Assembly (NCBI GenBank): GCA_937958695.1 | Contig: CALGNK010000014.1 | Location: forward strand, 1 to 64,000 | Direction of reading: 5' to 3' | DNA: 64,000 bases | From: an uncultured bacterium | GTDB taxonomy: Bacteria > DUMJ01 | Shown here: piece by piece, positions 14,619 to 41,642 of the stretch | Numbering within the stretch: the stretch's first letter is position 1 | Layout of the letters: each line of letters starts with the position of its first letter | Position numbers and translations under genes: made by a program | Notes under the pieces: model-generated | What the model was told of the DNA's origin: nothing | Seen by the model: only the letters and a program-made list of their open reading frames with translations | The model's database searches: none

Positions 14619-15040
14619 ATGAAAGTTTCTCAGTTTAACAAGAATTACAATTTTTATAAAGGTGATCTGCATTCTCATTCAACAGTCTCTGATGGGAGAT
14701 TATCTCCAGAGGAACTAGTTAAAGTCTACTATGAAAGAGGATACAAATTTTTAGTTTTTACCGAACATTCAATATACTCCTATTGGAAAGAGTTAGAACA
14801 AGAGAACTTTATTGTTATTCCTGGGGTAAAGATAGCAATAGATGAAATATCTAGACCTAGATGTTACCACTTTGTTGGAATGTCTAAATTCTTCTCAGAT
14901 AAAGATAAGAAAGAAAGGATAAATGAATTTTACTGGAATGGACCTGAGAGTATCCAAAAGGCTATAAATACTATGTTAGAGTTGAATGTATTGACGAGAA
15001 TGGGAAAATAGCTTGGACTAATCCTATATTTCTATCTTAA
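14619..15040 (+). pseudogene. PHP-domain phosphoesterase (CehA/McbA type), internally deleted
   Basis: The first 120 or so residues are a PHP domain start: GDLHSHSTVSDGRLSPEELV carries the metal-binding HxH, and VFTEHSIY the next His. The reading frame then stops at 15009. In the frame starting at 14969 the sequence reads YYVRVECIDENGKIAWTNPI followed by FLS and a stop at 15038. That is the usual C-terminal tail of this family. The middle of the gene, with the remaining metal and catalytic residues, is therefore gone, and the two ends are joined out of frame near 14960-14972. The surviving open frame (130 aa) is unlikely to be active. Confidence 0.8.
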
Positions 15041-15099: not shown

Positions 15100-15573
15100 A
15101 TGCTTAAGATAGGAGAAAAAGCGATAGATTTTTCCTTACCCAATAAAGAAGATAGATTAGTTTCTTTAAAAGATTTCCTTGGCAAGTGGGTTGTATTGTA
15201 TTTTTATCCAAAGGATGATACCCCAGGATGCACTCTTGAAGCTATAGAGTTTACTAGTATGGCTAAGGAATTTGAGAAGCTAAACGGGGTGATCTTAGGA
15301 GTAAGTAAGGATTCGGTAAAATCGCATCAAAATTTTTCTAAAAAACACTCCTTGAATATAGAGCTGTTAAGTGATGAATCTGCTTCAGTTATAAAAGCCT
15401 ATGGAGCTTGGGGGAAGAAGAAGATGTACGGTAAAGAATATGAAGGTACGATTCGTTCTACATATATCATAAATCCGGATGGGATTATAATGTATGTATT
15501 TGAAGATGTAAATCCGAAAGGGCATGCAGAGGAGGTTCTTAAAAAGTTAAAAGAGCTACAGGAAACAAACTAA
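15100..15573 (+). CDS. bcp: Thiol peroxidase, Bcp/PrxQ type (1-Cys)
   Basis: A 157-aa peroxiredoxin that reduces hydrogen peroxide and organic hydroperoxides. The peroxidatic Cys lies in YPKDDTPGCTLEAIEF, with the Pro-x-x-x-Thr/Cys geometry of the family. It is the only Cys in the protein: the resolving Cys found five residues later in E. coli Bcp is Ile here. It must therefore work as a 1-Cys enzyme reduced by an external thiol. AGGAGG precedes ATG 15100, and TATAAT stands at 15066-15071 without a clear -35. It leads the photolyase operon. Confidence 0.92.
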   Translation: MLKIGEKAIDFSLPNKEDRLVSLKDFLGKWVVLYFYPKDDTPGCTLEAIEFTSMAKEFEKLNGVILGVSKDSVKSHQNFSKKHSLNIELLSDESASVIKAYGAWGKKKMYGKEYEGTIRSTYIINPDGIIMYVFEDVNPKGHAEEVLKKLKELQETN

Positions 15574-16940
15574 TTCCTAAGGAAAGAGTAAAATATCTAA
15601 ATAATAAACAACCTGATAAGGGTGATTACATAGTCTATTGGATGCAGGCATCCCAAAGGACAGAGTATAATTATGCCCTAGAGTATGCTATCCTACAGGC
15701 AAATCTTAGAAAGAAGCCCTTAGTGGTCTTTTTTGGCCTTACTGATAGATACCCGCAGGCGAATTTACGCCATTATAAATTTATGCTTGAAGGTTTAAGG
15801 GAGGTTCAGAAAGAACTTTCTGATAGGGGTATATCTTTTATAATTAAATTTGTATCTCCTGAGATAGGTGTCTTAGAGTTAGCAAAGAGAGCGTTAATAG
15901 TTATAGTTGATAGAGGATATACCAAGATTCAAAGATACTGGAGAAATTATGTAGCTCAACGTATTGGTTGCCCCTTAATACAAGTAGAAGGTGATGTCGT
16001 AGTTCCAGTAGAAGTGACATCTGAGAAAGAGGAATATTCAGCTTATACAATTAGGAGAAAAATTAAAGGTTATCTGGATTATTTTCTTAATCAGATGGAT
16101 TCTATAGAGTTAAAAAAGAAATCTATAGGAATAGTAGATATAGAGTCTGAGCCCTTAGACGAGAAAGTAATATTGAAAAAACTTAATATAGAAGATATTT
16201 CTCCTTCCATCTATTACAGGGGAGGGACAAGTGAAGCTAAGAAGCTTCTTGAAGATTTTTTGGAGAAGAAGATTGACTATTACCCAAAATATAGGAATGA
16301 TCCATCTAAAGATTATCTATCTCATATGAGTCCTTATCTTCATTTCGCACAAATCTCTCCAGTCTACATTGCCTTAAGGGTCTTAGAAACAGGAAGCCAT
16401 GGAATGGAGGCTTATCTAGAAGAGCTTATAGTTAGAAGAGAATTGGCAATAAACTTCGTTTATTACAACCCGGATTATGATAGGTTTAATAGCCTTCCCA
16501 AATGGGCTATAGATACTCTAAAAGAGCACAGTGATGATAAGCGCAAATATTTGTATACGCTTGAAGAACTTGAAGATGCCAAAACTCATGATAAATACTG
16601 GAATTCTGCACAAAAGGAGCTATTAATTACCGGAAAGATGCATAGTTATATAAGAATGTACTGGGGGAAGAAGGTTATAGAATGGAGTAAAACCCCTGAA
16701 GAGGCATTCGAAAGGCTTATCTATCTGAATAATAAGTATGCATTAGACGGAAGAGATCCGAATAGCTACGCTGGTATAGCATGGTGCTTTGGTAAACATG
16801 ATAGACCTTGGAAAGAAAGATCTATTTTTGGAAAAATAAGATATATGAGCGAAAAGAGCCTTGAGAATAAATTTGATATGATATCTTATATAGAAAAGAT
16901 AGATAAACTTCAAGGTTTAGCCTATGAAAGATTTTCCTAA
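15573..16940 (+). CDS. phr: Class II deoxyribodipyrimidine photolyase
   Basis: Repairs UV-induced cyclobutane pyrimidine dimers with blue light, using FADH-. The class II signatures are YWMQASQRTEYNYALEYAI, RHYKFMLEGL, SHMSPYLHFAQISP, KTHDKYWNSAQKELLITGKMH (in pieces) and LDGRDPNSYAGIAWCFGKHD. The first ATG (15642) would begin at the Met of YWMQ and delete the first beta strand. The frame is open upstream and codes for KERVKYLNNKQ...GDYIVYW, which matches the family N-terminus. The only plausible start is ATT at 15573, which overlaps the bcp stop as TAATT behind AGGA at 15560-15563. That start gives 455 aa, the normal length. Confidence 0.9.
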   Translation: MPKERVKYLNNKQPDKGDYIVYWMQASQRTEYNYALEYAILQANLRKKPLVVFFGLTDRYPQANLRHYKFMLEGLREVQKELSDRGISFIIKFVSPEIGVLELAKRALIVIVDRGYTKIQRYWRNYVAQRIGCPLIQVEGDVVVPVEVTSEKEEYSAYTIRRKIKGYLDYFLNQMDSIELKKKSIGIVDIESEPLDEKVILKKLNIEDISPSIYYRGGTSEAKKLLEDFLEKKIDYYPKYRNDPSKDYLSHMSPYLHFAQISPVYIALRVLETGSHGMEAYLEELIVRRELAINFVYYNPDYDRFNSLPKWAIDTLKEHSDDKRKYLYTLEELEDAKTHDKYWNSAQKELLITGKMHSYIRMYWGKKVIEWSKTPEEAFERLIYLNNKYALDGRDPNSYAGIAWCFGKHDRPWKERSIFGKIRYMSEKSLENKFDMISYIEKIDKLQGLAYERFS

Positions 16941-17874
16941 ACCTAATATCGTTATAAGTAAGTGTATAAATATTGAGGCGGTAAGGTATGATGGAGGTAT
17001 AGTGGATAACGAATTTGCAAAGATATTAGGTAGTTATGTAAACTATATTACTGTATGTCCAGAGGTATCTATAGGTTTAAGTGTTCCTAGGGATCCTATT
17101 GTTATAATAAAAGAGAACAACTCTTATAAGTTATATCAACCAAAGACTAATCTAAATTTGACAGATAAGATGGAGGAGTTTTCGAATAAATTTCTCGATT
17201 CTTTAATTGATATAGATGGTTTCTTACTTAAGAGTAAGTCACCAAGTTGTGGAGTATCTGGGACGAAGATTTTTGATGATCTATATTCAGATAAGCCTAT
17301 AGAGGAAGGTAGAGGATTTTTTGCCCAAAAAGCTTTAGAGAAATTTGGATATCTAGCAATAGAGGATGAACTTAGTCTAAAAATCATAGAGATAAGGCAT
17401 CATTTCTTAATAAAGGTCTTTGCATTTGCTGAATTTAGGGAGACAATAAATAGGCTCTCTTCTGTAAAAGAACTGATCGACTTTCATCAGAGGTATAAGT
17501 ATCTACTTATGGCTTATAGCCAAAGAGCCTTAAGAACTTTAGGAAGATTAATAGCAGGGCAAAAAGAGTTAAAACTTCAAGAACTTACTTCTATATACAG
17601 AAGAGAATTTTACAAAGCCTTTGCAGATGTTCCATCTAGAGGTTCTAATGTAAATGTATTACAACATATATTCGGATATTTTTCTAGATATCTAAGAAAT
17701 GTTGAAAAAGATAAGTTTTTTAGATTATTAGATGATTATAGAAATGGACTAGTTCATATTACAAGTCTTATAAGACTCTTAAGGGATTATAGTTTTAGAT
17801 TTGAGAATAGATATCTTATTACTCAGAGATATTTGAATCCGTACCCGGAGGAATTTCTAGTTTACGAAAATTAA
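16924..17874 (+). CDS. TudS (DUF523)-DUF1722 fusion, RudS-like tRNA thiouridine desulfidase
   Basis: A 316-aa two-domain protein. The N-terminal DUF523/TudS part (about 5-150) has Cys 14 (VISKCINIEAVRYDG), Cys 45 (ITVCPEV) and Cys 109 (SKSPSCGVSGTKIF), the pattern that holds a [4Fe-4S] cluster in TudS desulfidases. The C-terminal DUF1722 part (about 185-300) is YbgA-like. Fused proteins of this kind have been reported to remove sulfur from 4-thiouridine in tRNA, which limits near-UV cross-linking. It overlaps the photolyase gene by 17 bases, parallel to ybgA-phr in E. coli. The exact substrate here is inferred. Confidence 0.85.
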   Translation: MKDFPKPNIVISKCINIEAVRYDGGIVDNEFAKILGSYVNYITVCPEVSIGLSVPRDPIVIIKENNSYKLYQPKTNLNLTDKMEEFSNKFLDSLIDIDGFLLKSKSPSCGVSGTKIFDDLYSDKPIEEGRGFFAQKALEKFGYLAIEDELSLKIIEIRHHFLIKVFAFAEFRETINRLSSVKELIDFHQRYKYLLMAYSQRALRTLGRLIAGQKELKLQELTSIYRREFYKAFADVPSRGSNVNVLQHIFGYFSRYLRNVEKDKFFRLLDDYRNGLVHITSLIRLLRDYSFRFENRYLITQRYLNPYPEEFLVYEN

Positions 17875-18847: not shown

Positions 18848-20587
18848 TTATCGGCTTAGAATTAACTCTTCTATAATTCTCCTCCCATTCATACCAAACT
18901 CTTTGCATCTTTCTGGATTTTTAACAAAGAATTCTATAGCTTCTGCCAATGCTTTGATATCACCGTAGTCAACCAGTTTACCATTTACATTGTCTCTAAC
19001 CAAATATCTAACTCCAACAGTGTTAGTAGCAACAACAGGTTTTCTGGCAGCCAACGCTTCACATACGATCCTTGGGGGCATCCCTTCCTTTTCAGAGGTT
19101 AGGGCAACTAGATCTACAATGCTTAGAAGTTTAGGGATATCACTTCTATAACCAATGAAACGTATCTTATCGGAAAGTCCTTCTCTAGTCACAACTTGCT
19201 TTAACTCTTTTTCTAAGGAGCCATCCCCAACAACAAGACACAAGAGATTCTTATACTTAGGGAATAATAGCTTTAAGCCATCAAAGAGAAACTTGTGTCC
19301 CTTTATGGGTTCAAGTCTTGCTATAACACCTATAACAAACTCGTTGTTAATCTTCAGTTCATTCTTAAGATTCCTTCTCCTTACCTCGTCAATGCTGGAG
19401 AATTCTCTATCGAATTTATCTAGGTCTATCTCCAAATCATAGGATCCTATCTGTGTCTCGGCTAATTTATCTTTCAGTTTTGTAGCTATATCTGCCAAGT
19501 TACTTGCCATATCTGCAAGTCGTATATTTACATTTAATTGTTGTTCAGAGGCAGAGGCGATCTCTTTACTCCCTTTGGTTATCTCGCGACTAGACTCGAC
19601 AGTTTTCTCAATCCTATTAGTCATATCTTTTATATTATCAGCAATCACATTAAAAGTATTGGTCACTTCTTGTAGAATCATTTCTCCCCTCTCTACCTGC
19701 TGATTGCTTGAAGATATTGTACTAATGGTATTAGCCATCTTCTCTGAGAGTTCATCTATAGTAATCTTAATCTTTTCTAGAAAATCCTGTGTCTGATATG
19801 CTAACTGTCTTACTTCATCCGCTACAACAGCAAAACCTCTACCGTGCTCACCGGCACGTGCTGCCTCTATAGCTGCGTTTAATGCCAAAAGATTCGTCTG
19901 CTCTGCTATATTAGATATCACCTTTACTACGTTATTTATCTCACTGAAAGCCCTATTAAGCTCATCAATCATAGCCATTGTTTGATTTATTGCTTGAGTT
20001 ATATCCTGCATCTGTTCTGCCATACTGTTTATATTAGAAATTCCTCCGTATGCTAGTGTCTCAACATTTCTACTTCTTTCTACTATCTCCTCTATGTTTA
20101 GATTTAATTTATCTGTCTCTTGAGTAAGACTCTGAAGAGCAGAATTGACCTCCTCCATCGTATCTGAGGTTTGTTTGATCGTATCGTTTAACTGTCTACT
20201 TGAATTAAGAATCCTCTCAGAAAGAGAATCTAGCTCTTTTATTAGGTTGTTCATACTCTTTAATATAGAGTTAATAGCTAACGTGACCTTATTGAGGGTG
20301 CTATCTTTCTCTTCTGGTAGAATATTCTTAAAACCTTCTTTAGATATTTTCTCTACGTAATTTGCAAACTCCTCAAATCTTCTAACAAGATTTTCCTTTT
20401 CTTTATATATATTTAGGTTCTTATCAAGAGGCTTTAAGAGATTATAAGTGATAAATAGAGAAATACCTAGGAGAATTAGAGCTAAAGGAACCAATATTAA
20501 TGGTTTTGGTATAAATACTCCTAAAAGGATTAGAGAAAAGGTTAGAGCAGATATAACTAAGATAAGCCTCAGATTAATCTCTTTCAT
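18848..20587 (-). CDS. Methyl-accepting chemoreceptor fused to GT-B glycosyltransferase half-domain
   Basis: A 579-aa chimera in one open frame. Two transmembrane segments (about 6-26 and 30-50) have no sensor loop between them. A long coiled coil carries the chemoreceptor hairpin tip [20 protein letters not shown] (228-247) and [13 protein letters not shown]. From about 385 to 575 follows the C-terminal nucleotide-sugar-binding half of a GT4 glycosyltransferase: [32 protein letters not shown] and [20 protein letters not shown]. The N-terminal acceptor half is absent. The two Glu of the EX7E motif are separated by eight residues instead of seven because of a double Pro. It follows the GH3 gene by 24 bases. 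Function is unknown. Confidence 0.85.
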
Positions 20588-20611: not shown

Positions 20612-22864
20612 TTATTCTACGATTACCTCACTATAGAATCTTCTATCCTTCGTTATAGTTTTTGTCTCTGAAACCTCAAATTTACCTGTTAATCTTATAT
20701 CCTCTGAGGATGAACCAATCATAACCTCGAATGTACCTGCTTCTACAATAAATCTCATTGCCTCATCGTAAAATGCTAGTTGGTCCATAAATAACCTGAA
20801 AGTAACCTTCTTTTCTTCCTGTGGCTCTAGGTGAACTCTCTTAAAGCCCTTTAACTCTTTTACGGGTCTTTCTACGCTTGCCCATTCATCGTGTATATAG
20901 AGTTGCACTACTTCGTCTCCAGCCATATTACCTGTATTTTTTATCTTAAGGCTTATATCTACATAACCTCCTGGCAAAACAACCCCTGGCTTAATTTCTA
21001 AGTCTGAATACTCAAATGTTGTATAACTTAATCCATATCCAAATGGGAATAAAGGTTTTGTATCAGTGGTTAGATATTCACTAAATGCGGATGGCTTCCT
21101 ATTATAATAAACTGGAATCTGCCCAACATCTTTTGGAAACGATATAGGAAGTTTCCCCCCTGGATTATAGTCTCCAAATATTACGTCTGCTATAGCATTT
21201 CCACCCTCCTCTCCAGGATACCAAGCTTCTATAATAGCTGATACATTTTCCTTCTCCCATGTTATTGAAAGTGGCCTTCCATTAGTAAGAACTAATACTA
21301 TTGGCTTACCAAGTTCTTTTAAAGCCTTTAAAAGTTCTCTTTGAACCCCAGGAAGGTTTAGGTCGATTCTATCATTGCCTTCTCCAGAGATTCCTCTCTT
21401 GAATAGTCCACTATTCTCTCCCATCACTGCTATAATGACATCAGATTTACTTGCTATATCTAAAGCCTCATTAAAACCTTCTCTCGATTCACTGTTAAGC
21501 TCACATCCTTTGGCATAAAGGATAGTAGTCCTAGAAAAGACTTTACTTTTAATGCCTTCTAAGACTGTTACCGTTCTTATCCCATCTGATACCCCAGCTA
21601 TATGTGAGGTATAACTATAGTCTCCATGTAAACTCTTGGTACTATCAGCATTTGGACCTATAACTGCTATACTCTTTACCTCTTTGCTTATGGGTAAAAT
21701 TCCATCATTCTTTAATAACACGATAGATTTTCTAGCAAACTCTCTTGCAAATGTCCTGTGCTCTGGATTATCTAGCATATCTTTTATTTTACTAGGGTCT
21801 GCATAGATATCATCTTCTAATAGACCTAGGAGTATCTTTGCCCTAAGGACTCTAGATACCGCGGTGTCTATAACAGACATAGATATTGCCCCTTCTTTAA
21901 CTGCTGATAATAGAGGTTCTCCATAGCACTTTATATCTGGTAGTTCTATCTCAATTCCTGCCTCCAACGCTTTTATGGCTGCAGTTTTTAGGTCCTTAGC
22001 GACTTTATGGAATGTGTGTAGCATCTCTATAGCTGAGTAGTCGGAAACCACAAAACCTTTAAATCCCCATTCTTCTCTAAGTACTTTAGTTAATAAAAAC
22101 TTAGAAGAAGCACAGGGAATTCCGTCTATCTCATGATAAGCGTTCATTAAAGAACCGACATTAGCTCTCCTTACCGCAACCTCAAATGGGAATAAGAAGA
22201 CCTCTCTTAACTCTCTTTCAGATACCCTAGCAGGTCCTAGATTTCTACCGCCTTCTGAAATACCGTATGCGGTAAAGTGCTTTGCAGTAGCTATTATACC
22301 TTCTCTCCAATCTTCACCCTGAAGCCCCTTAATATAACTCTCTGCCATCCTTGCTACAAGATACGGATCTTCTCCAAACGTCTCTTCAGTTCTTCCCCAT
22401 CTGGGGTCTCTAGGTATATCAAGAACAGGAGAAAGCCCCTGATGAACGCCAAATGCTTTCATTTCCTTTCTTATGATTGAGGTCATCTTTTGGATATCTT
22501 CTGGCTCAAATGTGCTAGCCATACCTATCGCCTGTGGAAATGTTGTAGCCCCTTTAGTCATAACACCAGATAGACATTCCTCGTGAATTATTGCTGGTAT
22601 ACCTAGCCTTGTTTCCTCCTTGAGAAATTTCTGTATCTCATTTATAATCTCTACAGACTCTAATGGATCTCTCTCAGCATATCCAGCAACCCTAGTTATC
22701 TGGCCTATCCCATTTTTCAAAAGCTCTCTAGCTTTCTCTTTGGAAAATTTTCCATTTTCTACTAACTTACCAGAAGGAACCGAACCAAGCTGTGCTATCT
22801 TTTCCTCTAAGGTCATCTTGGATAATAGATCTTCGATCCTTCTCTGTATCCACTTTTCTTCCAT
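20612..22864 (-). CDS. Glycoside hydrolase family 3 (beta-glucosidase/xylosidase-like)
   Basis: A 750-aa GH3 enzyme that releases terminal beta-linked sugars by a retaining mechanism. The order is TIM barrel (about 1-320) with nucleophile Asp in GFVVSDYSAIEML near residue 275, the alpha/beta sandwich with SKSDVIIAVMGENSG, and a C-terminal fibronectin-III-like domain (KNTGNMAGDEVVQLYI). KHFTAYG and the PRDPRWGRTEETFGEDPYL loop are classic for plant-type and bacterial xylosidase/glucosidase members. It has no signal peptide, so it acts on imported oligosaccharides in the cytoplasm. It sits one base after the pdxA2 stop, with AGGAGG before its ATG. Confidence 0.93.
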   Translation of the reverse strand: MEEKWIQRRIEDLLSKMTLEEKIAQLGSVPSGKLVENGKFSKEKARELLKNGIGQITRVAGYAERDPLESVEIINEIQKFLKEETRLGIPAIIHEECLSGVMTKGATTFPQAIGMASTFEPEDIQKMTSIIRKEMKAFGVHQGLSPVLDIPRDPRWGRTEETFGEDPYLVARMAESYIKGLQGEDWREGIIATAKHFTAYGISEGGRNLGPARVSERELREVFLFPFEVAVRRANVGSLMNAYHEIDGIPCASSKFLLTKVLREEWGFKGFVVSDYSAIEMLHTFHKVAKDLKTAAIKALEAGIEIELPDIKCYGEPLLSAVKEGAISMSVIDTAVSRVLRAKILLGLLEDDIYADPSKIKDMLDNPEHRTFAREFARKSIVLLKNDGILPISKEVKSIAVIGPNADSTKSLHGDYSYTSHIAGVSDGIRTVTVLEGIKSKVFSRTTILYAKGCELNSESREGFNEALDIASKSDVIIAVMGENSGLFKRGISGEGNDRIDLNLPGVQRELLKALKELGKPIVLVLTNGRPLSITWEKENVSAIIEAWYPGEEGGNAIADVIFGDYNPGGKLPISFPKDVGQIPVYYNRKPSAFSEYLTTDTKPLFPFGYGLSYTTFEYSDLEIKPGVVLPGGYVDISLKIKNTGNMAGDEVVQLYIHDEWASVERPVKELKGFKRVHLEPQEEKKVTFRLFMDQLAFYDEAMRFIVEAGTFEVMIGSSSEDIRLTGKFEVSETKTITKDRRFYSEVIVE

Positions 22865-23860
22865 TTAATAAACCTCCTTTCTATACTCTAGCTTTTTCCC
22901 TTTTACTAATTTCACTGCAAAATTAAAGGCATTCTCAAAGCTCTTTATAGTAGCTATACCTTTGTATGCTATGTCATATGCTGTCCCATGGTCAACTGAG
23001 GTCCTCACTATTTTAAGTCCTATTGTTACATTTACTCCTCCTTCAAAGTCTAATAATTTTACCGGTATATGTCCCTGATCATGATACATACAGACAACTG
23101 CAGAGTATAATCCATTATAGGCCTTCCAGAAGACTGTATCAGGAGGTATTGGACCTTCCACATTAATGCCCTCTCTCTTAGCTCTTTCGACCGCAGGCTT
23201 TATCTCTTTTTCATCCTCTTCACCAAAGGCAGAATGTTCTCCGGCATGAGGATTTAAGCCTGCTACTGCTATCTTGGGATTATCTATGAACTTCTTAATA
23301 GTTTCATAGGTAAGTAGGATGACTCTATATATATTCTCCTCCTTTACCATCTCTATAGCATCTCTCAAAGATAGGTGAGTAGATACATGTGTTACTATAA
23401 GTCTATCAGAGGCAAGCATCATAGTATAATTCTTTTCGCCACAGAGCTCTGCTATAAATTCTGTATGCCCTGTAAAATTAGGGAATGTAAGCCTAACTGC
23501 CTCTTTATTTATAGGGAGAGTAACTATCCCATCTAACTTTCCTTCTAAAGCCATTTTAGTAGCCTTTTCTACGTACATTATAGATGCATATCCAACTTTT
23601 TTGGAGGTCTTTCCAATAGTCAAATTACTTCTGTCTATTATACTTAGATCCAATACGTTTAGATGGCCTTCAGCTATATCAGTAAAAGAGTTTATCTTTT
23701 TTATTGGTACGTTATACTTTAAGTATTCATTGGTGAACAATAGGATATCATAATCACCAATAACAATAAATCCTTCTTTGATGCTACCTTTGGCAAAACT
23801 TTTAAGGACTATCTCAGGTCCAACCCCATTTGCATCTCCCATAGTAACGCCTATAAGCAT
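22865..23860 (-). CDS. pdxA2: PdxA2-type 4-phospho-D-threonate/erythronate dehydrogenase
   Basis: A 331-aa member of the PdxA family, NAD- and metal-dependent oxidative decarboxylases. Motifs are VTMGDANGVGPEIVLKSF at the start, TGHTEFIAELCG, NPHAGEHSAFGEEDE and MYHDQGHIPVKLL, which includes metal-binding His residues. It could be the vitamin B6 enzyme, but it lies six bases after a DUF1537 kinase gene. That pairing is characteristic of PdxA2, which oxidises 4-phospho-threonate or 4-phospho-erythronate to dihydroxyacetone phosphate and CO2. No other B6 gene is nearby, so the catabolic role is preferred. Confidence 0.85.
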   Translation of the reverse strand: MLIGVTMGDANGVGPEIVLKSFAKGSIKEGFIVIGDYDILLFTNEYLKYNVPIKKINSFTDIAEGHLNVLDLSIIDRSNLTIGKTSKKVGYASIMYVEKATKMALEGKLDGIVTLPINKEAVRLTFPNFTGHTEFIAELCGEKNYTMMLASDRLIVTHVSTHLSLRDAIEMVKEENIYRVILLTYETIKKFIDNPKIAVAGLNPHAGEHSAFGEEDEKEIKPAVERAKREGINVEGPIPPDTVFWKAYNGLYSAVVCMYHDQGHIPVKLLDFEGGVNVTIGLKIVRTSVDHGTAYDIAYKGIATIKSFENAFNFAVKLVKGKKLEYRKEVY

Positions 23861-23866
23861 CTTATA

Positions 23867-25114
23867 TCACCTATCAGTAATACCCTCTATGAGATTCAGT
23901 ATCTTCTCGATTACATCTTCCTCTCCAAAACCGCCAGCTTTTGAGATAAAGAATATGTCTTCCATGCTAGATAATACTGTTCCTTTATCTATCTCCAGAA
24001 TAGGGAAAAGATGGCTAATACCCATCTTTTCAGTTGTAGATAGTAATGTATCTCCACCAAATACAACCAAAGTATTCGTTCTTTCTATTAATCTCCTTAA
24101 AAGTTTATGCCCTATATCACCCAATCTCTTCGCTACTATAGAAGATAGATCTTCTAGAGTAATTGAATTAGCTTTTGCATATTCTTCATATATCTTTACA
24201 TCTGATGCCTTTTCTACAGTCCTTATAACTACTACCTCACAATTTCTAAGGCTAGAATCACTTAAAAAGAATCTCTTCTTTTTGAATACCACCTCTGGAG
24301 TGAGAACTACATCTAAGACCTTTCTCCTCTTTTTTATATACTCTATCTGTTTTAGTGACCTCTCATTTATACTCCCACAGATTACAATAAGCGGTTGAGC
24401 CTTTAAGTCAATTTTTGGCAGAGTTTTTTCCTTCTTAGAACCCATCAGCCTAACTAGAGTCTCTGCAAATCCTGCACAGCCTGCAGTACATTGGAGAAGG
24501 TTTTCCTCCTTAAGCATAAGTCCTATCTTTTCTAGATCTTCTCTAGTCTCTGCATCGAATATGTATACTCCAAACTCCAGATAACCATCCAATATACTTT
24601 CATATCTGTCCTTAGTAACTACAAATGTCTTTATATCTGCCTGCTCTCTTATAATATCCGGTATATAACTAGTCTTAATAGGATTTAATGGGTCTTGGGC
24701 AAATGCACTCTCTGATATAGGTACCCCATCTACATATTGGATTCCATCTTTAGTTATTCTTCCTTGCTCTGGATATGCTGGGATAAAAAAGATGGGGGAG
24801 TTAAAGACTTCCATAATAGCTTTAAACTCTACTCCGATATTTCCCCTAAGAGTCGAATCTGTTTTTTTATAAACGTAATTTAGTTTTCCATAAATATCTT
24901 TGATATTAGAAATTCTTATAAGTATTAAAACTTTATGGTAAGCATCTTTTGGATCTAGATGCCTGGTTTCACTATCAAGCACAACAACATCCACATCATC
25001 CTCTAAAAATACCGACTCTATCTCTACCCTCGTTAGATAACCATTTTTAGAGAACTGAACACCAGTATCGAGCGCTCCAGTCAAATCATCTGCAACTACA
25101 AGTATATTAGACAT
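23867..25114 (-). CDS. DUF1537 four-carbon acid sugar kinase
   Basis: A 415-aa kinase of the DUF1537 family (OtnK, DtnK and related), which phosphorylate four-carbon acid sugars at the 4-OH with ATP. The N-terminal domain begins ILVVADDLTGALDTGVQF and contains YKKTDSTLRGNIGVEF, both diagnostic. The C-terminal nucleotide-binding domain has VFGGDTLLSTTEKMG and the final AGGFGEED. With the PdxA2-type gene immediately downstream, D-threonate or D-erythronate is the most likely substrate. The spacing to the Cys-rich gene upstream is only three bases. Confidence 0.88.
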   Translation of the reverse strand: MSNILVVADDLTGALDTGVQFSKNGYLTRVEIESVFLEDDVDVVVLDSETRHLDPKDAYHKVLILIRISNIKDIYGKLNYVYKKTDSTLRGNIGVEFKAIMEVFNSPIFFIPAYPEQGRITKDGIQYVDGVPISESAFAQDPLNPIKTSYIPDIIREQADIKTFVVTKDRYESILDGYLEFGVYIFDAETREDLEKIGLMLKEENLLQCTAGCAGFAETLVRLMGSKKEKTLPKIDLKAQPLIVICGSINERSLKQIEYIKKRRKVLDVVLTPEVVFKKKRFFLSDSSLRNCEVVVIRTVEKASDVKIYEEYAKANSITLEDLSSIVAKRLGDIGHKLLRRLIERTNTLVVFGGDTLLSTTEKMGISHLFPILEIDKGTVLSSMEDIFFISKAGGFGEEDVIEKILNLIEGITDR

Positions 25115-25329: not shown

Positions 25330-26562
25330 TTAGAATGGTATTAATTCTCCTTCTTTATCGCATATGTCTACAAAATCACCGATTATTTCTATTCTATCTT
25401 TTATCTCTTCTAGAATACTTTCTGAGATGTATAATTCGCTCAAGCTGAGAGTGTTTTTTATCCTTATAACTCTAGCTCTTTCAATATTTATAGGACCACA
25501 AGTCCTCAACGCCCATTCTATAGCAGTTCTTGAATCTTCAGCTATAATAGGTATCTTACCCCTAAGGACAAATGTACTTGTGATTGCATTCTGATAAGTA
25601 GCATTAAAATCTATCTTGCTGAAAAGCCTATTTGTAATAAAATCTGCAAGACCTAAACCTATAGCGTTTCCATGGGTCTTATCTGTAAGATCAGTAACAA
25701 CAATTCTAGTAATCTTTGGTTTATCAGGTTCTAGTTCTCCATCTATGTATATTCTGCCTATAATGTTTGTATCCATTCCTGCACCACTTATATCTTTTCC
25801 CATCTCATCAACTATCAGGAGATCTAGTTTATCCACAGGTAGAGAGGGCATATTCTCTCTAGCTATCTTAAGAAGTCTCTTGTCTGTCTCTTCAAAATCT
25901 TCAGGCATCACCGCTTCTAATATCATTGTTTCATCATAGGCATTTTCCACTATACCAATGCCAAATATGATATTTCCATGCTCTATAATTCTCTTTGCAG
26001 TTGGTGGGATTAGATATTTTAACCCATATGTCCCAAATCTATGTATCTCTATAGCCTGTTTATGTTTCCCTAGTCCTATTACACACATCTTTAATAATCC
26101 GCTTTCTACGTCACCGTGAAAATCTGTATGAGGTTTTATTCGATTTACTATAATAGTTCCATCTGCAGAATAGGCTATCTTATCCATAAAGACCCTATTC
26201 TCTAGTCCATCGGATGGCAATTCCACAACCTCCATAGATGACAAAATAGGGGCTCCAATAAGATCTTCTCTAACTCCATAACCTTCCAATAGTTTTTTCT
26301 GTCCCTCAGCGGTAGCTCCCCCATGACTACCCATAGCTGGAACAATAAATGGTCTTCCTCCTAGCTCTTTTACTACATCTACTGTAGCTTTTACAATCCT
26401 ATCTATATTTCTTATACCTCTACTACCAACTGCAATAGCTACTTCTGCCCCTGATCTTATAGATATTCCTAACTTAAGTATCTCAGTCCTTACCTTCCCC
26501 TCAATATCTTCTATACGTTCTCTATTAAAGAATTGTCTTACCTTTATTAATTTAGGAATCAT
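25330..26562 (-). CDS. LarA-like nickel-pincer racemase/epimerase (DUF2088)
   Basis: A 410-aa homologue of lactate racemase LarA, whose family interconverts 2-hydroxy acids with a nickel-pincer nucleotide covalently bound to Lys. VPAMGSHGGATAEGQ and NRIKPHTDFHGDVESGLLKM contain the His and Lys residues in the places expected for the pincer site and catalytic acid/bases. The HGG form of the first motif differs from the true lactate racemases, so a different 2-hydroxy acid is likely. In this operon a C4 sugar acid (C2 epimerisation) would make sense. Cofactor genes larB, larC and larE are not in the window. It overlaps the DUF1576 stop by one base. Confidence 0.78.
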   Translation of the reverse strand: MIPKLIKVRQFFNRERIEDIEGKVRTEILKLGISIRSGAEVAIAVGSRGIRNIDRIVKATVDVVKELGGRPFIVPAMGSHGGATAEGQKKLLEGYGVREDLIGAPILSSMEVVELPSDGLENRVFMDKIAYSADGTIIVNRIKPHTDFHGDVESGLLKMCVIGLGKHKQAIEIHRFGTYGLKYLIPPTAKRIIEHGNIIFGIGIVENAYDETMILEAVMPEDFEETDKRLLKIARENMPSLPVDKLDLLIVDEMGKDISGAGMDTNIIGRIYIDGELEPDKPKITRIVVTDLTDKTHGNAIGLGLADFITNRLFSKIDFNATYQNAITSTFVLRGKIPIIAEDSRTAIEWALRTCGPINIERARVIRIKNTLSLSELYISESILEEIKDRIEIIGDFVDICDKEGELIPF

Positions 26563-27806
26563 TAATACCTTATCTCCTTCTCAATAAGATGTGGTTTTAG
26601 GTCTCTTAGAAGAGCCACTATGACTATGGCTACAAGACCGCCGGAAAAACCATTATTGTAAAGGTTCATATAACCGTGCATCTCTCCAACATGCATAACC
26701 ATTGGAAGATGAAGCATACCTGCAAGTAAACCAATAAACGGTCCAAATCTTCCGCTAAATGGAGCCAGTGTTGTTCCAAAGAGCGCAGCCAAAGTTGGGC
26801 CAGGATCTGAATGAAGCCAGACCTTAGGAATACATATAAGATAAACTCCTAACATTATAGGTAACACATTCTTTATATGTTTTCCCAATGCGCCAAAGCC
26901 GACTATAGTAAAGATTCCTGCTATTACAGGACCATTTATATCTCCACCTATAAGTTTTACATATAATAGACCTAATAATCCAAGTATTCCCATATTTATA
27001 AGAACACTACCTAAACCTCCTATTTCAACAAAGTCGGTTATAAGTCTTCCACTCTCTCTTACTATCTTTTTTATACCTCTTATATCTTTATCTAACGATA
27101 GTCCAAGTACAATAAAAGAAAGAAAATATACGAGTAATATAGGAAATAATATCTCAGTATGCTCTTTACTCCAGTGCATAACTGGTGATATCTTAAAACC
27201 AAATCCTTTTAACATTATATAGTATATAGTTCCTACAATTCCACCTGTAGTCCCAACATTGTATAGATTATAACCTTGGTGTAGGCTATAAACGTGTTTA
27301 GCAAGTGCAGATACAAGCATACCCATAATGATGCCCATTATTATCCCCCATATAATACCAAAATTAAATCCAAAGGCGGTTTGACTTACCGTAGGTGCTA
27401 GTGTTGTTCCAAAGAGACAGGGAGCAATATAGTTCTTCAGTTGTCGTTTAGTAAGCTTAGAGAAAAGACAAACGCCGAAAATGATAGGCCAAATATTAAA
27501 TATGTTTTTCCCAAACATAGCAAAGCCAGACATAGTAAAGACTCCTGCTATGACTAAACCAGAGATGTTAACCCCACTGAGATATGAGACAACCACCCCA
27601 CTGAGACCTACAAGTCCGGCATTTATAAAGGTAGCCCCCAACCCTCCTATGGCTATATAGTCGGTTATAAGTATACTAGGAGATTTAAGTATATTCAAAA
27701 GACCAACACCTATCTCTTCGATTGGTGATAGAAAGAATCCAATAGCTATAAGCGCTAAGTGATAAACTATTAACATTAAAAGAATCTTAACTTTTATCTT
27801 GGACAC
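26562..27806 (-). CDS. DUF1576 membrane protein with internal duplication, putative transporter
   Basis: A 414-aa polytopic membrane protein with roughly ten to twelve helices. It is built of two similar halves. ITDYIAIGGLGATFINAGLVGL pairs with ITDFVEIGGLGSVLINMGIL. VIAGVFTMSGFAMFGKNI pairs with VIAGIFTIVGFGALGKHI. LFGTTLAPTVSQ pairs with LFGTTLAPFSGR, and YNLYNVGTTGGIVG with YMNLYNNGFSGGLVA. Inverted or tandem repeats of this type are typical of secondary transporters. The family has no established function. It lies between the helicase gene (20-base overlap) and the LarA-like gene (one-base overlap), so uptake of the operon's acid substrate is a reasonable guess. Confidence 0.72.
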   Translation of the reverse strand: MSKIKVKILLMLIVYHLALIAIGFFLSPIEEIGVGLLNILKSPSILITDYIAIGGLGATFINAGLVGLSGVVVSYLSGVNISGLVIAGVFTMSGFAMFGKNIFNIWPIIFGVCLFSKLTKRQLKNYIAPCLFGTTLAPTVSQTAFGFNFGIIWGIIMGIIMGMLVSALAKHVYSLHQGYNLYNVGTTGGIVGTIYYIMLKGFGFKISPVMHWSKEHTEILFPILLVYFLSFIVLGLSLDKDIRGIKKIVRESGRLITDFVEIGGLGSVLINMGILGLLGLLYVKLIGGDINGPVIAGIFTIVGFGALGKHIKNVLPIMLGVYLICIPKVWLHSDPGPTLAALFGTTLAPFSGRFGPFIGLLAGMLHLPMVMHVGEMHGYMNLYNNGFSGGLVAIVIVALLRDLKPHLIEKEIRY

Positions 27807-40433: not shown

Positions 40434-41642
40434 TTAAATAAGGAAAGACATCACCGCCCCAGATACAACAGGGACACTTAGGTTATCATCTACTGGGAAA
40501 GGGAATACCTCAACAATAGAAGCTACTATAGCACCAAAAACACCTATCCACAAAGGCAGTATATTTGCTAACCATAAGAAATAAGCGGAACTGATAGATA
40601 TGGAGAGAAAGCCTATAGAGCCTTCTAGAGTCTTCTTTGCATCTGAGTTAAAGATAACCCTTTTACCATAATTCATCCCCACTATCTTTGCCATCATATC
40701 TCCAAAAACTAGAAAGCTTAAACTTGCTATTGCAATGCTCTCTTTAAATAGAAGGAAAGTCAAAAAGACACCAAGTAGAAAGGTTGTTATAGAAGAAATT
40801 CTTCGCTTCTCTTTTACCTTATACACCCTAAATCCTTTAGTTATCTCTTTATTTAGAATATCTCCAACCCTTTTATGTAAGATTCTTAAAGAGTCTGCTA
40901 TAAAGGAGGCAAAGAGAACTACCCCTATTAATGTTATCAATGCTCTTTTGCTTATAGCCATACCTAAAAAGAAAAAAGACATTCCAGCAGGACGTATAAA
41001 GATCCTCCATAGTGGGAGATTCTCACTCCTAATAGTAAACATCTTTAATCTTCTCATGTTCATAATACTTACAAGAAAGATAAAAGATATTAGACAGAGA
41101 AGAAAAACTAGCTCGCTAGACAGTTTAACTAAAAAGATTAAGGTCAAGGCAACCATAGGTAAGACTGTTACTGCTAAAAAGTTTTCATCCCAAGTTGAAC
41201 AATAGATACAAATGGTAAAAAAAGATAGGTATATTAAAGAGCTTAGAAGTTCTAAAGGAGATATATCCCTAATAGCTATTTTGGCTAAGACAAATATGAG
41301 CATTCCCGTTGCTGTGGCAACCCCTCTTCCTCCCTTAAATCCCAGATAAAATGGAGCTACATGACCCAATATTGCTGATATACCTGAAAGATAGACGATC
41401 GATTCCTGTGACTGAAAGACTTCTTTAGCTATATACATAGCAAGGAGTCCTTTTGAACAATCATAAAGTCCAGTTATTATTGCCATATGGAATCCCAACG
41501 TCCTTTTTACATTTGTAGTCCCTGGATTTCCATCCCCTAGGGTCCTAATATCTATTCCATTCTCCCACTTGGGGATAAGATACCCTGGTAGTATAGAACC
41601 TAGAAGGTAACCTATAATGATGGGGAAGAGTTTAATCATCAT
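40434..41642 (-). CDS. PlsY acyltransferase fused to CTP-dependent lipid kinase-like domain
   Basis: A 402-aa membrane protein with two enzyme-like halves. The first (about 1-200) is PlsY, the acyl-phosphate:glycerol-3-phosphate acyltransferase, with GSILPGYLI, LGDGNPGTTNVKRTLG and HVAPFYLGFKGGRGVATATG. The second (about 215-402) resembles the SEC59/DGK1 CTP-dependent dolichol/diacylglycerol kinase group: VFGDMMAKIVGMNYGKR, KKTLEGSIGFL and FPFPVDDNLSVPVVSG. PlsY alone is about 200 aa. Joined, the two could make and phosphorylate glycerolipids. It overlaps the end of the upstream GGDEF gene by 11 bases. Confidence 0.85.
   Translation of the reverse strand: MMIKLFPIIIGYLLGSILPGYLIPKWENGIDIRTLGDGNPGTTNVKRTLGFHMAIITGLYDCSKGLLAMYIAKEVFQSQESIVYLSGISAILGHVAPFYLGFKGGRGVATATGMLIFVLAKIAIRDISPLELLSSLIYLSFFTICIYCSTWDENFLAVTVLPMVALTLIFLVKLSSELVFLLCLISFIFLVSIMNMRRLKMFTIRSENLPLWRIFIRPAGMSFFFLGMAISKRALITLIGVVLFASFIADSLRILHKRVGDILNKEITKGFRVYKVKEKRRISSITTFLLGVFLTFLLFKESIAIASLSFLVFGDMMAKIVGMNYGKRVIFNSDAKKTLEGSIGFLSISISSAYFLWLANILPLWIGVFGAIVASIVEVFPFPVDDNLSVPVVSGAVMSFLI

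Follow-up and report, generated by a model that had tools for sequence, protein, structure and literature searches.

A membrane-anchored chemoreceptor that may use half of a GT4 glycosyltransferase as its cytoplasmic sensor

The question raised by this locus is what half of a glycosyltransferase (GT) could be doing at the end of a chemoreceptor. The initial annotation of the window, i.e., the whole stretch of 64,000 nucleotides that was analyzed, described one open frame joining a chemoreceptor (MCP) to the donor-binding half of a GT4 enzyme, and this was borne out. On the minus strand, the ORF runs from an ATG at 20587 to a stop at 18848-18850, and its product contains the Pfam domains MCPsignal (PF00015; residues 192-350, 1.1e-41, over the cut-off) and Glycos_transf_1 (residues 406-570, 9.8e-35), the latter covering 168 positions (4-171) of a profile of 172. 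The features of the gene are as follows:

18848 to 20587, minus strand: MCP-GT4 C-domain fusion gene, a single uninterrupted ORF of 579 aa
20599 to 20605, minus strand: Shine-Dalgarno-like GAGGAGG, 11 bases 5' of the ATG
20435 to 20569, minus strand: two transmembrane helices with a 4-residue turn, residues about 7-51, and no periplasmic domain
20234 to 20383, minus strand: putative divergent HAMP-like segment, residues about 69-118, a weak profile match
19469 to 20299, minus strand: MCP cytoplasmic hairpin, residues about 97-373, from MCPsignal and alignment to other MCPs
19799 to 19903, minus strand: predicted CheA/CheW-contact tip, residues 229-263, near-identical to other MCP tips
19373 to 19468, minus strand: linker, residues 374-405, being GT4 interdomain segment from IDLDKF (387) on
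18878 to 19372, minus strand: GT4 C-terminal donor-binding Rossmann domain, residues 406-570, from Pfam, AlphaFold2 and Foldseek
19058 to 19087, minus strand: EX8E motif, E501-GMPPRIVC-E510, one residue longer than EX7E

The acceptor domain of the GT had been described as missing, and indeed the N-terminal GT4 domain is absent, leaving the C-domain alone. The alignment of full-length GT4 enzymes to the fusion protein begins at about residue 387, in the interdomain segment, and what the protein contains is therefore the C-terminal half of such an enzyme; moreover, the ORF stops short of the crossing C-terminal helix of the full-length enzymes.

The phylum is sampled by three genomes of one genus, that of the window and two others (G001 and G002). 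A search of relatives for the same MCP-GT order, proposed at the outset, found it full-length at the same genomic place in the two other species, with 79% and 76% identity, and both have a similar AGGAGG-type sequence. The refuting condition named at the outset, absence of the fusion from every other genome, thus fails. By the Nei-Gojobori method, dN/dS was 0.067-0.072 in the GT half, on a par with the MCP core (0.064-0.090), and reached 0.38-0.50 in the transmembrane segment, indicating that both halves are under strong purifying selection and that the GT half, at about 0.07, is neither decaying nor useless.

Next, the receptor part was analyzed. Hydropathy gave a single hydrophobic block (residues 3-54), broken only by the turn IPKP, and therefore no external domain, in agreement with the two membrane helices without an external sensor that had been described. 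Residues 69-118 may be a divergent HAMP, as a profile comparison aligned them colinearly, over 46 columns, with the HAMPs of the other MCPs in the genome (E 8.5e-4 in a single comparison, at a probability of only 24%); Pfam HAMP found no match in the fusion protein, even at a loose threshold. The full methyl-accepting signalling hairpin of the first description was also recovered, with PF00015 over the cut-off and a tip that is invariant in the three species and matches those of the four other MCPs almost residue by residue. The tip can be expected to contact CheA/CheW. The hairpin is about three heptads per arm shorter than in three of the four other MCPs, and the strict methylation-site motif is absent from the protein, in which one relaxed site, at 141, is kept in the three species; its coupling to the array of the other MCPs, and likewise its adaptation, are thus uncertain.

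The window's genome contains one CheA, one CheR, flagellins and five MCPs, the fusion included. All four other MCPs have an extracytoplasmic Cache sensor and a HAMP (below the cut-off in one). One of them (L102, in G000:C36) is double-ended, with a Cache sensor and a C-terminal zinc-binding CZB domain, which means that this cell already employs a C-terminal sensor. Several neighboring MCP frames, a CheR and a CheA-type frame of 916 aa were observed in G002:C130 (L106, L108-L111, L035); this second chemosensory cluster was not seen in the window's genome.

The isolated GT half, for which modelling had been suggested, was predicted with high confidence by AlphaFold2 (40 sequences), at a pLDDT of 93.7 and a pTM of 0.90, and thus a folded domain is predicted C-terminal to MCPsignal. 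A full-length model from three sequences was set aside (mean pLDDT 49). The top Foldseek match was HepE, with UDP and UDP-glucose (TMq 0.83-0.84), followed by the C-domain of LpcC alone (5i45), MshA and BshA. HepE, solved with UDP-glucose, was the best match by sequence as well as by structure, and this match gives a weak hint at UDP-sugar specificity. Several further matches were GPCR entries, which we took as matches to the glycogen synthase domain inserted in these receptors; this GT-B C-domain folds alone and for that reason serves as a fusion partner (PMC9334595). That such isolated C-domains fold alone, as in 5i45 and the glycogen synthase domain, counts in favor of reading the GT half as a sensor.

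The acidic motif had been noted to be one residue longer than EX7E, and this holds for the three species: all copies read E-G-[MV]-P-P-R-I-[VI]-C-E, the two glutamates enclosing eight residues. In contrast to the EX8E of 3/3 fusions, EX7E spacing was found in 39/39 close non-fused GT4 relatives, i.e., 37 aligned homologues and 2 closer ones (one at 44% identity), all within the limit of E <= 1e-15. Downstream, GGxxE is changed to xGxxY, the glutamate being replaced by Tyr at 528 in all three species. R424 and K429, at GT4 phosphate-binding positions, do not vary among the three species, and neither do the GDG loop, E501 and E510. The two motif glutamates of GT4 enzymes point toward the donor. 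In GnaT, replacement of the first motif glutamate nearly abolished activity, and replacement of the second reduced it (PMC12856342); the second one touches the ribose of the nucleotide in WsaF (PMC3898925).

The extra residue had been interpreted as suiting binding without catalysis. Three features support the non-catalytic side of this claim: there is no acceptor domain, the motif is altered, and the glutamate of GGxxE is gone. As for the binding side, a glutamate pair that is shifted but kept agrees with a domain that binds but does not carry out normal transfer; a change or loss of binding is another possible meaning, and the extra residue together with the change at 528 might abolish nucleotide-sugar binding, beyond catalysis alone. 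A distant GT4-like partial frame (L051:3-920) with the sequence D-PQPPLKTI-E also has eight residues between the acidic residues, and therefore the longer loop alone is no proof of lost activity; a PP-lengthened motif loop may occur elsewhere in the GT4 superfamily.

Sequence and model together suggest, with a little better than an even chance, that this protein is a membrane-anchored chemoreceptor whose sensor is the cytoplasmic C-terminal GT4 donor-binding half. We read the GT half as the sensor on four grounds: no other part of the protein is a candidate input domain, and the half is predicted to fold, is constrained, and keeps the donor-phosphate contacts; it would also be the simplest input domain, since the other four MCPs have Cache sensors and the fusion has none. 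For ligand binding, ligand identity, signal transmission and behavior, we infer the following course. The short membrane hairpin would serve as an anchor only, and the Rossmann cleft would take up a small intracellular metabolite, the likeliest being a nucleotide sugar (UDP-glucose, for example) or the corresponding nucleotide. The bound ligand would act via the short linker on the base of the MCP hairpin, CheA activity at the conserved tip would change in turn, and movement would thereby be coupled to the internal carbohydrate status. A nucleotide sugar or nucleotide is probably the first candidate ligand, and the sensing of UDP- or GDP-sugars is plausible, as the predicted fold, the residues that bind phosphate and the nearest structures (HepE, solved with UDP-glucose) all agree with it. 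The more specific proposal, that a de-catalyzed GT4 half gauges the intracellular nucleotide-sugar level and steers motility, as a new class of chemoreceptor sensor, is tentative, and we rate it somewhat below an even chance.

The main rival is that the GT half is a protein-interaction or clustering domain that binds no metabolite and, for example, docks the receptor to a GT complex, a sugar enzyme or a second copy of itself. The active-site changes common to the three species agree with such a role, as does the loss of the N-domain, which presumably exposes a surface free for partners. However, a pure scaffold needs none of the donor-site R, K and motif glutamates, which are always kept, and we regard this explanation as unlikely, albeit one to be taken seriously.

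A second possibility concerns the ligand, and here the upstream genes have to be considered:

20612 to 22864, minus strand: GH3 glycosidase, the immediate upstream gene, a neighbor in all three species
22865 to 23860, minus strand: PdxA-family dehydrogenase (PdxA2-like), a neighbor in all three species
23867 to 25114, minus strand: four-carbon acid sugar kinase (DtnK/OtnK-like, D-threonate/tetronate), kept in G001
25330 to 26562, minus strand: LarA-type nickel-pincer isomerase, kept in G001
26562 to 27806, minus strand: DUF1576 membrane protein, kept in G001

The G002 contig ends before the position of the kinase. The DUF1576, LarA-like, kinase, PdxA, GH3 and fusion genes lie on one strand with spacing from a 1-bp overlap to 215 bp; this order fits the sugar-catabolism operon that had been assumed, which stands as a candidate operon. 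The gap between the fusion and GH3 genes is 24 bp in the window versus 106-125 bp in the relatives. The genes adjoining the fusion gene do not make nucleotide sugars, which speaks against the nucleotide-sugar sensor reading. With the four-carbon acid sugar genes and GH3 kept as neighbors, the ligand could be of a different kind from nucleotides and nucleotide sugars, for instance a sugar phosphate or a compound formed in the neighboring tetronate/GH3 pathway, and the altered motif could have shifted the specificity. This is, nonetheless, quite improbable, given that the diphosphate-binding residues are conserved and that the nearest structures are UDP-sugar enzymes.

Downstream of the fusion gene, the surroundings differ, with an AKR gene in two species and a nitroreductase gene in G001. 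In this region of the window, a PHP-type phosphoesterase gene is broken (14619-15034), with residues 1-119 and 277-302 of its homologue side by side; the intact G002 homologue has 303 aa and lies directly beside the AKR gene, and thus the window's genome has an internal deletion. The stretch from this PHP remnant to the AKR gene contains peroxiredoxin, photolyase-like and DUF1722/2-thiouracil-desulfurase genes (15100-17874), which are absent from the corresponding place in G002. Elsewhere in the window, a 402-aa membrane protein (40434-41642) is, by eye, what we take to be PlsY (glycerol-3-phosphate acyltransferase) joined to a second membrane-enzyme half.

Split GT-B enzymes such as Alg13/Alg14 exist, and with both acidic residues of the motif retained, the GT half could likewise be an enzyme subunit, a membrane-anchored donor half to which a separate protein would supply the acceptor half in trans. 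No acceptor-half gene was found beside the fusion in any of the three loci, though, and the EX8E spacing, the missing GGxxE glutamate and the fusion to an intact MCP, which this explanation leaves unaccounted for, make it very improbable. Finally, the GT part starts in the interdomain segment and lacks the terminal helix, as a deletion would leave it, but with the same join at the same place in three separately assembled genomes (76-79% identity) and purifying selection on both halves (dN/dS about 0.07 in the GT half), misassembly and the recent deletion fusion that the initial annotation had offered as its alternative are rejected, and a decaying accidental fusion likewise retains a negligible chance.

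The search for further proteins of this kind found no MCP-GT spanning protein beyond the genus in 386 domain-wide genomes and in 51 and 396 genomes of two phyla. In these large surveys, scoring was limited to the few best candidates of each genome, and a fusion that arose independently may show in them as two separate rows; convergent MCP-GT fusions elsewhere are possible. In a plasmid collection, 1275 records matched either half and none covered 80%. The scan of genome contigs matched both halves only in the G002 orthologue, the rest being MCP-only matches, and a search of viral contigs with the GT alignment gave two loci only. One GT match (G212, L044), in a 556-aa frame within a long-frame region without MCP, was rejected, as it looks like an ordinary GT4.

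Known cytoplasmic chemoreceptor sensors are mostly PAS, GAF, globin or zinc domains. Like the fusion, some MCPs have a transmembrane anchor and no periplasmic sensor, with the membrane hairpin followed by cytoplasmic signalling parts; most of these have either a domain of the PAS or GAF type or no such domain, whereas the fusion has a GT half at its far end. In following the signalling hairpin and facing the cytoplasm, the putative sensor of the fusion resembles that of chemoreceptors bearing a C-terminal ligand-binding domain (LBD), e.g., MCP-CZB. These receptors are a recognized but poorly characterized group, with at least 17 LBD types at MCP C-termini, and the GT4 donor half is not named in the main text of that source (PMC7390727). 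We therefore describe the fusion as a candidate C-terminal-LBD receptor with a GT4 half and do not call it a new category, the comparison being with that main text. No GT example among C-terminal MCP sensors was found in the portions of the literature searched or in about 830 genomes.

The nearest solved GT4 enzymes are HepE/Alr3699 (4xso, 4xsp, 4xsr, 4xsu), PglA (8dqd), MshA and BshA. They share with the fusion the C-terminal Rossmann fold, the R/K phosphate-binding residues and the two motif glutamates; the fusion differs in having no acceptor N-domain, no crossing helix, EX8E, Tyr in place of the GGxxE glutamate, and attachment to a receptor. With regard to the proposed role, OpgH of E. coli and UgtP of B. 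subtilis are glycosyltransferases that read UDP-glucose as a nutrient signal (PMC3723540), which makes a nucleotide-sugar read-out biologically plausible. Like the role proposed for the fusion, theirs is that of a glycosyltransferase acting as a nucleotide-sugar sensor for cell behavior (PMC3723540); unlike the fusion, they are whole enzymes that regulate FtsZ, and not receptors.

The GT half is a soluble domain of about 200 residues that is predicted to fold alone, and is thus directly testable. Should it be the sensor, it would tie movement directly to nucleotide-sugar pools, a known proxy of nutrient status in cell-size control. It would also show half of a common enzyme turned into a receptor input, and the protein would stand beside the UDP-glucose sensors OpgH and UgtP as their counterpart in motility.
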